Part shown: piece after piece, positions 16,105 through 19,078 of the stretch
Layout of the letters: each line of letters starts with the position of its first letter
Position numbering within the stretch: the first letter of the stretch is position 1
From: Pseudomonadota bacterium
Lineage (GTDB): Bacteria > Pseudomonadota > Gammaproteobacteria > Steroidobacterales > Steroidobacteraceae
Assembly (NCBI GenBank): GCA_021807675.1
Contig: JAKBCR010000010.1
Span: 1 to 46,030 of the forward strand
Reading direction: 5' to 3'
DNA: 46,030 nucleotides
The notes under the pieces: generated by a model
Seen by the model: the letters and a program-made list of their open reading frames with translations, nothing else
Database searches by the model: none
What the model was told of the DNA's origin: nothing
Made by a program: the position numbers and the translations under genes

Positions 16105-16836
16105 ATGTCGATGAGATTCCAGTACCGTGCGGCAGGTCCGATTGCAGCCGCGTCCATTCTGGCTCTGCTCACGGCTTGCAGCCGCACTCAGCAGGACTGG
16201 CGGGTCGCCCAGCAGGCCGGCACGGCCCCGGCCTACCAGGTCTTCGTCGCGCATCATCCCGGCAGTGAGCTTGCGGCCGTCGCGCGCCAGCGCATCGCGC
16301 AGCTGACCGAGCAAGCCGCGTGGCGGCAAGCGAAGCAGGCAAACACCGCGGCAGCGTATCAGGCTTACCTCGCGAAGTACCCGGACGGCGTCTGGTCGCA
16401 GGACGCGCGTATCCGCATGGAGAGCGGGGCGCTGACCGGACTCACTGAGGCCCACCCCGATGAGAACCGGGGGCGCAGTAAGGGGCCCCTGATGCCAGGC
16501 GCGACGGGTACGGCGCCGCAGGAGCCCCGACCTCCCGCGACCCCAACCGGTACTGGCGTTGCCGCCACCGTCACCCCTGCGTCCACCGGCCATTCCGGGC
16601 GATACGCGGTGCAGCTCGGTGCCTTCAGCAGCGCCGCCAACGCAAAGATCGCACAGGGCCGGATCTCCTCGCGGTTCCGGGCGCAGCTTCGAGGACGGAC
16701 TGTCAGAGTGGTTCCCGTGTCGGTTGCGGGCCACAAACTCTACCGGTTGGAAGCGGGCGTCGCGGACCGGGCCACGGCGCATCGGCTTTGCCACGAGATC
16801 CAACAACATTCCCAGGGGTGTTTCCCGGTGCCATAG
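16105..16836 (+). CDS. SPOR-domain lipoprotein with tandem repeat
   Basis: A 243-residue lipoprotein: a basic start and hydrophobic stretch lead to lipobox LLTAC with Cys25. Two related segments follow, residues about 31-67 (DWRVAQQAGTAPAYQVFVAHHP) and about 71-107 (WRQAKQANTAAAYQAYLAKYPDG), which look like a duplicated TPR-like helix pair. After a Pro/Thr-rich linker, residues 165-243 form a SPOR domain (YAVQLGAFSSAANA to YRLEAGVADRATAHRLCHEI), which binds glycan strands lacking stem peptides at division sites. The ATG is preceded by a strong GGAGGAGG at 16087-16094. It is divergent from the bactofilin gene with about 32 bases between them. Confidence 0.85.
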   Translation: MSMRFQYRAAGPIAAASILALLTACSRTQQDWRVAQQAGTAPAYQVFVAHHPGSELAAVARQRIAQLTEQAAWRQAKQANTAAAYQAYLAKYPDGVWSQDARIRMESGALTGLTEAHPDENRGRSKGPLMPGATGTAPQEPRPPATPTGTGVAATVTPASTGHSGRYAVQLGAFSSAANAKIAQGRISSRFRAQLRGRTVRVVPVSVAGHKLYRLEAGVADRATAHRLCHEIQQHSQGCFPVP

Positions 16837-16849
16837 GGAGCAGGTGCCC

Positions 16850-16875
16850 GTCACAACGTGACAATTACCGTCACG
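16850..16875. promoter_or_regulatory. Inverted GTCAC half-sites (candidate activator site)
   Basis: Two overlapping palindromes share a half-site: GTCAC-AAC-GTGAC at 16850-16862 and CGTGAC-N7-GTCACG at 16857-16875. The centre lies about 91 bases upstream of the predicted sigma-54 start, the distance at which bacterial enhancer-binding proteins usually act. An AT-rich tract with a TTGATT core, suitable for an IHF bend, lies between the site and the promoter at about 16898-16925. The binding protein is unknown. Confidence 0.5.
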
Positions 16876-16930
16876 GGACCGGAGTTGGGGGGTAGAGTTT
16901 AAGTTTTTGATTTTTCAGTATTTTTGCCGC

Positions 16931-16946
16931 TGGCATGGCGCTTGCT
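16931..16946 (+). promoter_or_regulatory. Sigma-54 (-24/-12) promoter
   Basis: TGGCATGGCGCTTGCT matches the RpoN consensus TGGCACG-N4-TTGCW with one change, and the essential GG and GC are separated by exactly ten bases. The predicted start is near 16957. The next thing downstream on this strand is not a protein gene but an intrinsic terminator at 17026-17070, so the promoter appears to serve a small RNA. Confidence 0.7.
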
Positions 16947-16956
16947 TAAACTACCG

Positions 16957-17070
16957 CGGACGCCGCTTCTGCGAGGCGACGTCGGTTGGAATCGCGAACA
17001 ACTTCCCCGGTGTTCGCTGACCTCATGCGCCGCGACGCGCCTTCCCCCGCGCGCGGCGCACCTTTTTTTT
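16957..17070 (+). ncRNA. Candidate sigma-54-dependent small RNA with C-rich loops
   Basis: A transcript from the -24/-12 promoter to the terminator would be about 114 nt. It can form three stem-loops: SL1 at 16961-16978 (CGCC-GC / GC-GA-GGCG, loop UUCU), SL2 at 16994-17017 (perfect 7-bp stem GCGAACA/UGUUCGC, loop ACUUCCCCGG) and the terminator hairpin at 17026-17060 (13 bp with one bulged A, loop CCUUCCCC) ending in eight U. The heptamer CUUCCCC is shown in both SL2 and the terminator loop, an arrangement typical of small RNAs that pair with ribosome-binding sites. Size and layout recall Xanthomonas sX13 (C-rich loops) and Vibrio Qrr RNAs (sigma-54 control), but I see no direct sequence relationship. 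The only open frame here is antisense to the neighbouring pseudogene and is not protein-like. Confidence 0.6.
17026..17070 (+). terminator. Rho-independent terminator
   Basis: TGCGCCGCG (17026-17034) pairs with CGCGGCGCA (17052-17060); inside it CGCG pairs with CGCG around loop CCTTCCCC, leaving A17035 bulged. CC and eight T follow (17063-17070). It points along the plus strand only. Confidence 0.8.
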
Positions 17071-17079
17071 ACAGGCGGC

Positions 17080-17651
17080 TCAAGTCAACATCGCCACGTC
17101 GAGCTGCGCTGCGAGGATCCTGACGGCGCGCTCCTTCGACGGCGAGGCGGACAGGCCTGCGGCGATCACGGCATTGTCGTGCGGCCCGATCGAGCCGTTG
17201 TGATACGCCATGGGGTTGCAGCGTACCTCGGAAACAGCAGCGCCAGGGCCCCGCCGGGCAGCCGCGCCTTGGAGCGCTCGTCGATCTCGCCGAGGTACTC
17301 GACCCCGGGGGCGCCGAGCAGGGGCTCGACAGCCGAGGCGAAATACTCTCGGTCGGCCATATCGATCCTGGCGGCAATCTTGAGCGGCAGCCCGGCGCGA
17401 CGCGCGATCGCGCGGTCCACCCGTTTCCCGGGTGCGATGCGCCCAAGGAACACGAGGTAGCTTCCCGCGTCATAATGCGGACGGTGCAGCTCGAGAGGCA
17501 GGCCATGATGGACCGTTCCCGCCCAGCTCGCCCATGGCAATGGCGCGCGTTGGGCATTGGAGATAGAGAGGTAGGACACCACGCGTTCCGTCCCGCCGTA
17601 GAGCTTTGCGGGAACGCTCTCACAAAGCGGTGCCACCTGAGCGATGCGCAA
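17080..17651 (-). pseudogene. Chimeric remnant: GT4 glycosyltransferase plus debranching enzyme
   Basis: Reading leftward from about 17651, the frame gives LRIAQVAPLCESVPAKLYGG, TERVVSYL, the N-terminal signature of a GT4 glycosyltransferase. It then jumps directly to SISNAQRAPLPWASW, YLVFLGRIAPGKRVDRAI and LPLKIAARIDMADREYF, which normally lie more than 100 residues later, so the middle is deleted in frame. At about 17230 the sequence switches frame to EVRCNPMAYHNGSIGPHDNA and VIAAGLSASPSKERAVRILA, a match to the amylo-alpha-1,6-glucosidase (glycogen debranching) family, ending at TGA 17080-17082. The two genes are often neighbours in proteobacteria, so a deletion probably joined them. Neither part can be functional: both lack large portions of their catalytic domains. 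Confidence 0.7.
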
Positions 17652-17722
17652 GTCCGTCCCCGATTTCAGGATCGTCGCTTGGACAGCAAAATGCATACCC
17701 GTCGCGCAGCGAAACCAACGAC

Positions 17723-19078
17723 ATGACCATTCCAGCAGCCTCACCTGAACCCGCTCCGGCTCCGCGCCACGCAAGCCTCGCCGCGTCACGGCGCCTCTGC
17801 GTGTCAGGAAGGGAAATCGTGCGCGATGCGACGCTGGCCAATGGAATGCGCATCATCGTCTGGCCGGTCCACGATATCCCGAATGTCGCGCTCTACAACT
17901 GGGTACGCGCCGGCAGCCGCAACGAGGCGCCCGGCGCCACCGGGCTCGCGCATTTCTTCGAGCACATGATGTTCAACGGCACGAGCCACCATCCACCGGG
18001 ACACTTCGACCGCTTGATGGAGGCCGAGGGCGGGGCCAACAACGCCTTCACCACCGACGACGTCACGGTGTACCAGGACTGGTTCCCGGCGAGCGGACTC
18101 GAGCTCGTGCTCGACCTGGAATCGGACCGCGTCGCGCGGCTCGCCTTCACCCCCGAGGTGATCGAGAGCGAGCGCGGCGTGGTTGCTTCCGAGCGGCGGC
18201 TGCGCGTAGAGGACAACAGTCACGGCCTGCTCGCGGAGCAGGTGCAGGCGAGCGCCTTCGTCGCGCATCCCTACCGTTTCCCGACCATAGGCTGGCCGGC
18301 GGACATCGAGTCCTGGCGGCTGGAAGACCTGCAGGCGTTCTATCGCACGTACTACGCACCCAACAACCTGACACTGACGCTCGCGGGAGACGTGGATCCG
18401 GAGCGGGCGATCGCATCGGTGCGGCGATTCTTCGAGTCCATTCCCGCGCAGGCACCGCCGCCGCCCGTGCGCGCCGTGGAGCCCGAGCAGGTTTGCGAGC
18501 GGCGCGTATCGATCCGCCGCAAGGCTCAGACGCCCCTCCTGCAGTGTGCGTACAAAGCCCCGCGCGCGGCCGATCCACGCGCGCCGGCGGTCAGCCTGCT
18601 GCTTTCCGCTCTGGTGGAGGGCGATGCGTCGCGGCTGCACCGGGCGCTCGTCGAGGATCGGCAGCTCGCGATCGAAGTGAGCGGACACTGGCAGGAGGGG
18701 TTCGACCCCGGACTGCTCTGGCTCTCACTGACGCTGCCGGAGGGTGCCGACCCCGAGGAAGCGCGCCGCGCGCTCGATGCGGAGCTTGCGGCGGTCGCCG
18801 CCGATGGTGTCACCGAGGCGGAGCTCGAGCGCGCGCGCAATCTCGCCACCGTGGGCCTGTGGAAGAAGCTTGCCACCATCGACGGCAAGGCGCAGATGCT
18901 TGGCGAGTACGAGGTGTTTCACGGCCACTGGTCGCGGCTGTTCGATGCGCCGGCACGGATCGCGGAAGTCTCCACCGAGGAGCTGCGCGCCGTCGCGGAG
19001 GAAATACTCGACCCGAGGCGGCGAACGGTCGGAGTGTTGGTGCCCTCGAGCCCTCCTTCCGCGAGCACCGCTTCATGA
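17723..19078 (+). CDS. M16 zinc metallopeptidase, active subunit
   Basis: From ATG 17723 the product has 451 residues and the inverted zinc motif H77-F-F-E80-H81 in GLAHFFEHMMFNGT, with the downstream Glu ligand in the ESERGVVASERR segment near residues 148-159. The C-terminal half carries the M16 inactive-lobe domain. Homology starts at about residue 35 (ATLANGMRIIVWPV); a GTG at 17819 is preceded by a much better AGGAAGGG ribosome site and may be the true start, giving 419 residues. No signal peptide is evident with either start. The gene overlaps its partner by ATGA, so the two should be made in equal amounts. Confidence 0.9.
   Translation: MTIPAASPEPAPAPRHASLAASRRLCVSGREIVRDATLANGMRIIVWPVHDIPNVALYNWVRAGSRNEAPGATGLAHFFEHMMFNGTSHHPPGHFDRLMEAEGGANNAFTTDDVTVYQDWFPASGLELVLDLESDRVARLAFTPEVIESERGVVASERRLRVEDNSHGLLAEQVQASAFVAHPYRFPTIGWPADIESWRLEDLQAFYRTYYAPNNLTLTLAGDVDPERAIASVRRFFESIPAQAPPPPVRAVEPEQVCERRVSIRRKAQTPLLQCAYKAPRAADPRAPAVSLLLSALVEGDASRLHRALVEDRQLAIEVSGHWQEGFDPGLLWLSLTLPEGADPEEARRALDAELAAVAADGVTEAELERARNLATVGLWKKLATIDGKAQMLGEYEVFHGHWSRLFDAPARIAEVSTEELRAVAEEILDPRRRTVGVLVPSSPPSASTAS

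Follow-up and report, generated by a model that had tools for sequence, protein, structure and literature searches.

A conserved small RNA behind a sigma-54 promoter shares its activator site with pilA and is a probable noncoding arm of the Steroidobacteraceae type IV pilin regulon

We analysed a 46,030-nt stretch of DNA from a Pseudomonadota bacterium of the Steroidobacteraceae (JAKBCR010000010.1; hereafter the window), in which comparative evidence indicates that positions 16850-17070 hold a real small RNA that is shared by many related soil bacteria and appears to be undescribed. The RNA structure, the promoter and the activator site shared with pilA are supported by comparison of related sequences, and since the dyad and the promoter are common to pilA and the RNA, the RNA most likely represents the noncoding arm of a pilin regulon governed by PilR and sigma-54. 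We consider it probable that in the Steroidobacteraceae it belongs to the type IV pilin regulon as a trans-acting arm, pairing with G-rich mRNAs. The features of the locus and its neighbours, all on the forward strand, are as follows.

16105-16836, +: SPOR-domain lipoprotein gene, upstream neighbour (PF05036)
16850-17070, +: small RNA locus as a whole
16859-16873, +: activator site TGACAATTACCGTCA, a TGAC-N7-GTCA dyad and probable PilR site; the same dyad stands at pilA
16900-16912, +: IHF-like site TAAGTTTTTGATT, with 0 mismatches to YAANNNNTTGATW
16931-16947, +: sigma-54 -24/-12 promoter TGGCATGGCGCTTGCTT, with GG-N10-GC spacing
16957-17070, +: small RNA of ~114 nt, from its fold and covariance model R1; start predicted from the promoter
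16959-16983, +: stem-loop 1, lineage-specific; predicted fold, with similar sequence in 5 close relatives
16994-17017, +: stem-loop 2, a conserved hairpin with its CUUCCCC loop at 17002-17008
17026-17070, +: terminator stem-loop with its CUUCCCC loop at 17041-17047 and T8 at 17063-17070; helix with two-sided changes
17606-19078, +: M16 peptidase gene, downstream neighbour (PF00675/PF05193)

The first-pass annotation had described a unit of about 114 nt that ends in a T8 terminator and contains no evident protein gene, all of which is present in the sequence. The region from 16957 to 17072 folds at -51.2 kcal/mol compared with -40.5 +/- 2.95 kcal/mol for shuffled sequences (z -3.64), and none of 200 shuffles was as low. 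Covariance model R1, made from 12 copies, gives the window, itself one of these 12 sequences, 88.5 bits over 16992-17072; model R2 was made from 50 copies. Of the three stem-loops originally proposed, stem-loop 2 and the terminator stem-loop are conserved and vary little among the 30 genus copies, whereas stem-loop 1 is not generally conserved; because the 5' segment is variable in the relatives, we regard stem-loop 1 of the window as specific to its lineage. In alignment A4 the -24 element stands anywhere from 26 to 251 nt before the RNA core. Single-base indels that distinguish the relatives in their loops and linkers ruled out coding read-through across the RNA.

Of the 61 loci searched, 50 entered alignment A4, and several of the R1 sequences recur in it. 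Six loci with promoter and dyad were left out merely to keep 50 (L027, L039, L040, L041, L043 and L047), as were L054, which is the same site as L096, the rejected L056, and the weak or partial L112, L114 and L115, at which promoter and dyad are present. Compensatory changes of the stems, which the first-pass annotation had expected from a covariance search, were found: two-sided changes occur in 14 of the 20 base pairs across the 50 copies, a count that leans towards the model's structure because A4 was fitted to it, and none of 500 shuffles reached the observed value. There were 49 two-sided cells as against 8.0 in shuffles, 97.9% of the A4 cells pair, and 0/500 shuffles matched the observed value on any of five measures. 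Controls in which the alignment was slid gave at most 5 pairs with two-sided changes, and the terminator helix by itself has such changes in 10 of its 12 pairs.

BLASTN gave matches in 13 of 60 genomes, the own genome included; one of its matches (L014 in G029) was set aside as a chance match with no T-run after it. Searches with R1 matched 32 of the 58 genomes of the genus, leaving 26 without a match, and 61 of the 396 genomes of the order, 56 of them in the same family and five outside it with E-values of 2e-4 to 5e-4. A second match in G016 (L056, E 9.6e-4) was rejected because it has no promoter. At the level of the class, R2 matched 3 of 369 genomes, namely the own genome, G531 and G532, in a type of large covariance search whose stricter filters lose weak matches. 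The match in G531 lies on contig C134 (L188) with a g25-type SPOR end, a promoter and a small ORF, and beside the RNA match in G532 no promoter was found; neither is a clear independent case of the RNA. The genome G531, which shows 6% contamination, is placed in another family, and C134 is possibly a stray contig. A scan with the stem-loop 2 hairpin pattern returned 26 stretches, all MAG, of which 6 are labelled Steroidobacteraceae and the others carry broader names. As far as sampled, the small RNA is specific to the Steroidobacteraceae.

The SPOR lipoprotein gene that had been placed before the small RNA was confirmed by a PF05036 match. Within flanks of ~1.5 kb or less, 41 of 50 copies of the RNA have a SPOR-domain homologue upstream and 22 of 50 are accompanied by an M16 peptidase homologue, and the keeping of these neighbours supports orthology of the RNA loci across genera. 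In the window, a bactofilin gene (PF04519; 15665-16072, reverse strand) adjoins the SPOR lipoprotein gene.

The -24/-12 promoter with GG-N10-GC spacing that had been read from the sequence holds up well. Its match to TGGCAY-N5-TTGCW at 16931-16947 is the only strict one on either strand of the 46-kb window, and a strict TGGCAY-N5-TTGC precedes 49 of the 50 RNA copies even though the covariance model includes no promoter sequence, the fiftieth copy (L095) having just 218 nt of upstream sequence. The paired GTCAC/GTGAC half-sites are likewise present at 16850-16874; they are better read, though, as one TGAC-N7-GTCA dyad, with an additional GTCAC at 16850-16854 upstream of it, which also occurs in the near relatives G035 and G032. 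Of the 49 promoter-bearing copies, 46 have this dyad 68-103 nt before the -24 element, and three (L106, L108 and L116) lack it. The comparative side of the proposed sigma-54 control thus amounts to a promoter in 49/50 copies and promoter plus dyad in 46/50. Promoter and dyad accompany all 30 genus loci returned by the R1 search; outside the genus, where 27 of the 32 family loci were looked at, the strict promoter was found at 26 and the dyad at 23.

The consensus of IHF sites is YAANNNNTTGATW. The AT-rich bend region noted earlier is present and holds an exact match to this consensus at 16900-16912. Across the family, an IHF-like site with at most one mismatch lies between dyad and promoter in 31 of 46 copies, compared with 0.46 expected from shuffled spacers, and keeps a nearly fixed register between the two. 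The RNA hence carries, as far as its sequence can tell, the promoter and activator site of a sigma-54-dependent small RNA. That promoter-like and hairpin-like sequence came together by chance is contradicted by conservation, covariation and promoter co-occurrence, and we hold this explanation to be extremely improbable.

The link to pilin genes emerges from the activator site. Its pattern occurs at 6 places in the own genome, one ahead of a type IV pilin gene with its -24/-12 promoter and one ahead of the small RNA; at the other four, no strict promoter stands at the right position. In a genus-wide search for the exact site, 18 of the 30 loci listed have a -24/-12-like promoter within 260 nt, and among these matches 8 are at pilA, 8 at the small RNA (L059 and L062 by position) and 2 at unrecognised places (L074 and L075). 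A search with the pilin protein in 23 genomes, mostly picked for carrying the RNA, matched pilA in 20 of them from 11 genera, lower-scoring matches (L164-L169) being left aside. All 20 pilA genomes have a strict -24/-12 promoter with TGAC-N7-GTCA 91-136 nt before the -24 element. In 207.5 kb of sequence chosen around pilA and the small RNA, together with the window, there are 11 strict promoters, all at pilA or the small RNA by position, and 10 of the 11 carry the dyad. The RNA shares its activator site with pilA, as a member of the PilR regulon would.

Two side observations belong here. At L074 and L075 the exact activator site is followed ~205 nt downstream by a -24/-12-like sequence, and neither locus is pilA or the small RNA; they are possible further members of the regulon. 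At L145/L163 (G064:C4), a tandem pilA pair has -24/-12 promoters at both genes and the dyad at the first only.

The pilA stretch of the own genome (L181) contains a PilS-like kinase (6TM_PilS) beside an NtrC-type regulator ~10.5 kb before pilA, as well as pilB, recognised by NCBIfam, and genes that we take for pilC and for pilD, the latter having no NCBIfam hit. Homologues of the regulator occur in 5 of 7 pilA stretches (L181-L184 and L186) and lie directly before pilA in L183 and L184. Given the dyad shared with pilA and a regulator gene near pilA, PilR is most likely the activator of the small RNA, both its identity and its binding being deduced from sequence. The regulator scores below every NCBIfam cut-off shown and is named PilR by its position, its domains and the adjacent 6TM_PilS kinase, which leaves room for a real sigma-54 small RNA whose dyad is read by another enhancer-binding protein and which is not an output of PilR. 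The PilR sites of Pseudomonas aeruginosa also speak for such an activator, as they are described in PMC6058289 as NifA-like TGT-N11-AGA and GTCT elements, in contrast to TGAC-N7-GTCA here. However, with the dyad at pilA in 20/20 genomes, a separate activator must control pilA too, and we regard this alternative as unlikely.

The second conserved trait is the C-rich loops. The twin CUUCCCC proposed at the outset does stand in both loops of the window, but the exact twin recurs in only 17 of the 30 genus copies, and the shorter UCCCC is what both hairpins carry in all 30 (alignment A2). Across the family, 37 of 50 copies carry UCCCC in both hairpins, 9 in stem-loop 2 alone and 4 in the terminator alone, and 0 lack it in both, so that 46/50 have it in the stem-loop 2 hairpin and 41/50 in the terminator hairpin. 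The expectation of invariant CUUCCCC loops in relatives therefore failed: 9 of 50 copies lack the terminator UCCCC (seven g25 copies, L097-L102 and L104, plus L107 and L116) and 4 of 50 that of stem-loop 2 (L106 and three g20 copies). Folds predicted for 13 chosen copies leave 4-5 of the 5 UCCCC bases unpaired; both hairpins carry the motif in 10 of these copies, and the terminator alone in the three from g20. In the seven g25 copies, stem-loop 2 keeps UCCCC exactly, the terminator hairpin has lost it, and the RNA follows a small ORF. The 5' segment of L103 (g29) adds a third UCCCC hairpin loop, so that this copy matches sX13 in the number of its C-rich loops, three, and L105 and L107 have 5' sequence resembling that of L103, a likeness of sequence, the fold having been made for L103.

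Such loops invite comparison with known small RNAs, though the window has no Rfam match at gathering thresholds. The Qrr RNAs of Vibrio have a sigma-54 promoter and a response-regulator-type activator. The locus had been likened to a cross between Qrr and sX13. The Qrr half of this comparison comes down to sigma-54 control, the single shared trait, with no Qrr model among the Rfam matches listed and no sequence relation seen. The sX13 half is real but below threshold: the sX13 model (RF02232, Xanthomonadaceae) gave sub-threshold matches over the small RNA in 7 loci of a diverse set of 20 and in 2 of 12 genus loci, the best being 30.6 bits (L108) against a gathering score of 50, and sX13 is not among the matches listed for the window. 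According to PMC3771888, sX13 is an RNA of ~115 nt with stem-loops and 4C/5C motifs in the loops; through these loops it represses G-rich mRNAs, including those of type IV pilus genes, Hfq being dispensable, and deletion of sX13 raises 14 type IV pilus genes. The same paper places sX13 downstream of polA and calls it constitutively expressed, in contrast to the SPOR gene upstream and the sigma-54 promoter with the pilA dyad here. The shared trait is C-rich motifs in hairpin loops, which are predicted to be unpaired in our RNA. By this analogy we file the small RNA as a separate family that would work like sX13, and not as a member of it. The ar14 model (RF02344) scored 28.9 bits (E 7e-4) in the window and 34.5 bits at L092, short of the gathering score of 58.8; its C-rich hairpin loops are alike, and ar14 comes from another class, the Alphaproteobacteria.

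We infer the following course of events. Active PilR, together with PilS, would bind TGAC-N7-GTCA; IHF would bend the DNA between dyad and promoter; and sigma-54 RNA polymerase would start transcription at ~16957, as at pilA. The product of ~114 nt would end at the intrinsic terminator and expose UUCCCC in the loops of stem-loop 2 and the terminator. By analogy with sX13 of Xanthomonas, the probable partners of these loops are G-rich (GGGGA-like) stretches in or close to the ribosome-binding sites of unlinked mRNAs, and the pairing would mainly repress these mRNAs, which is also the effect of the loops of sX13.

Candidate targets were sought in several ways. The scan of mRNA leaders for G-rich sites, proposed with the original description, yielded no convincing target: the pattern GGGGAAGT-N{2,9}-ATG occurs at 11 sites in the own genome compared with 3 for the reversed-pattern control, and in our judgement none of the 11 is at a convincing gene start. 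For pilA in 19 genomes, RNAduplex energies were no better than those of shuffled leaders (mean z -0.10), in a comparison that used single-base shuffles and ignored the RNA's own fold. The starts of pilA, pilB, pilR and pilD, where found, gave no target lead, and nor did pilin-like starts, only 2 of 33 of which have GGGG nearby. In pilT-family and pil stretches there were five matches, none at a recognised pilus gene. That the target scans found no target is what would be seen if the C-rich loops bind a protein or sponge another RNA rather than pair with mRNA leaders; yet the known C-rich loop RNAs, sX13 and HPnc5490, the latter as described in PMC3771888, work on G-rich mRNAs, and we give this explanation a low probability. 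Against the RNA as an arm of the pilin regulon we count the absence of a target, including the pilA duplexes and the scarcity of GGGG, together with the unmatched genus genomes, the dyad-less copies, the loop losses and the distance of the regulator from pilA.

Since the RNA is apparently under the regulator of pilA and has C-rich loops, the making of pili may bring the silencing of other genes. If so, the system that tunes pilin levels acts post-transcriptionally as well, and a direct test of what is silenced during pilus building could start from the dyad common to pilA and the RNA, from the RNA family and from its UCCCC loops. Our searches of open-licence PMC papers on PilR and small RNAs, sigma-54-dependent small RNAs and small RNAs of Steroidobacteraceae yielded no small RNA driven by the pilin activator.

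The family also contains a second arrangement. In g25 (L097, L098, L099, L100, L101, L102, L104 and L188) and g34 (L092, L094 and L095), an ORF of 58-67 aa, MSTRTLTLLMPALRPSD...RVDARLARARC... with starts of our choosing, precedes the RNA core and, where the contig extends far enough, sits between the sigma-54 promoter and the core. The DARLARA stretch is common to the ORFs of g25 and g34, and one ORF of each had no significant Pfam match. Judged by substitution rates, the small ORF of g25 is under amino-acid constraint, with dS above dN in all 28 pairwise comparisons of the 8 g25-type copies (dN 0.05-0.33, dS 0.35-2.09). This coding signal, the position of the ORF between the same promoter and core, and the terminator-loop UCCCC lost from seven g25 copies are together what one would see if the RNA core were the 3' end of a small-protein mRNA, and the stand-alone form in the window a remnant kept as a terminator. 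In 26 genus copies of A4, however, the -24 element lies just 28-108 nt before the core, too short a distance for such an ORF, yet all 30 genus copies of A2 retain stem-loop 2 and the UCCCC of each hairpin; a lone terminator has no need of a second hairpin with a conserved loop. We therefore consider the mRNA 3'-end origin of the window's form improbable and retain the reading of a free-standing regulatory RNA there.

GlnZ and NrsZ are RpoN-dependent RNAs according to PMC9731577, in which GlnZ, derived from an mRNA 3' end, is called the NtrC regulon's noncoding arm. GlnZ resembles the g25 and g34 arrangement in its 3'-end origin and differs in serving the NtrC nitrogen regulon, as opposed to the pilin regulon here; the GlnZ and NrsZ sequences were compared via Rfam only. 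More tentatively, and with odds we place somewhat below even, the family may span a transition between a small-protein mRNA with the RNA as its 3' end (g25 and g34) and a free-standing RNA (the genus of the window), within a family-wide PilS-PilR RNA arm that is made whenever pilin is called for and silences mRNAs with G-rich ribosome sites, the sX13 of the Xanthomonadaceae being a counterpart rewired to constitutive expression that has kept its action on pilus genes. The g25/g34 and g1 arrangements would then form a natural series of a 3'-end RNA becoming free-standing, or the reverse. At L112 (g37), a strict -24/-12 promoter is followed by a different ORF of ~80 aa (MDNTEVIAVLVAGYDDDG...), which has no Pfam match, and then by sequence that matches the RNA core weakly.
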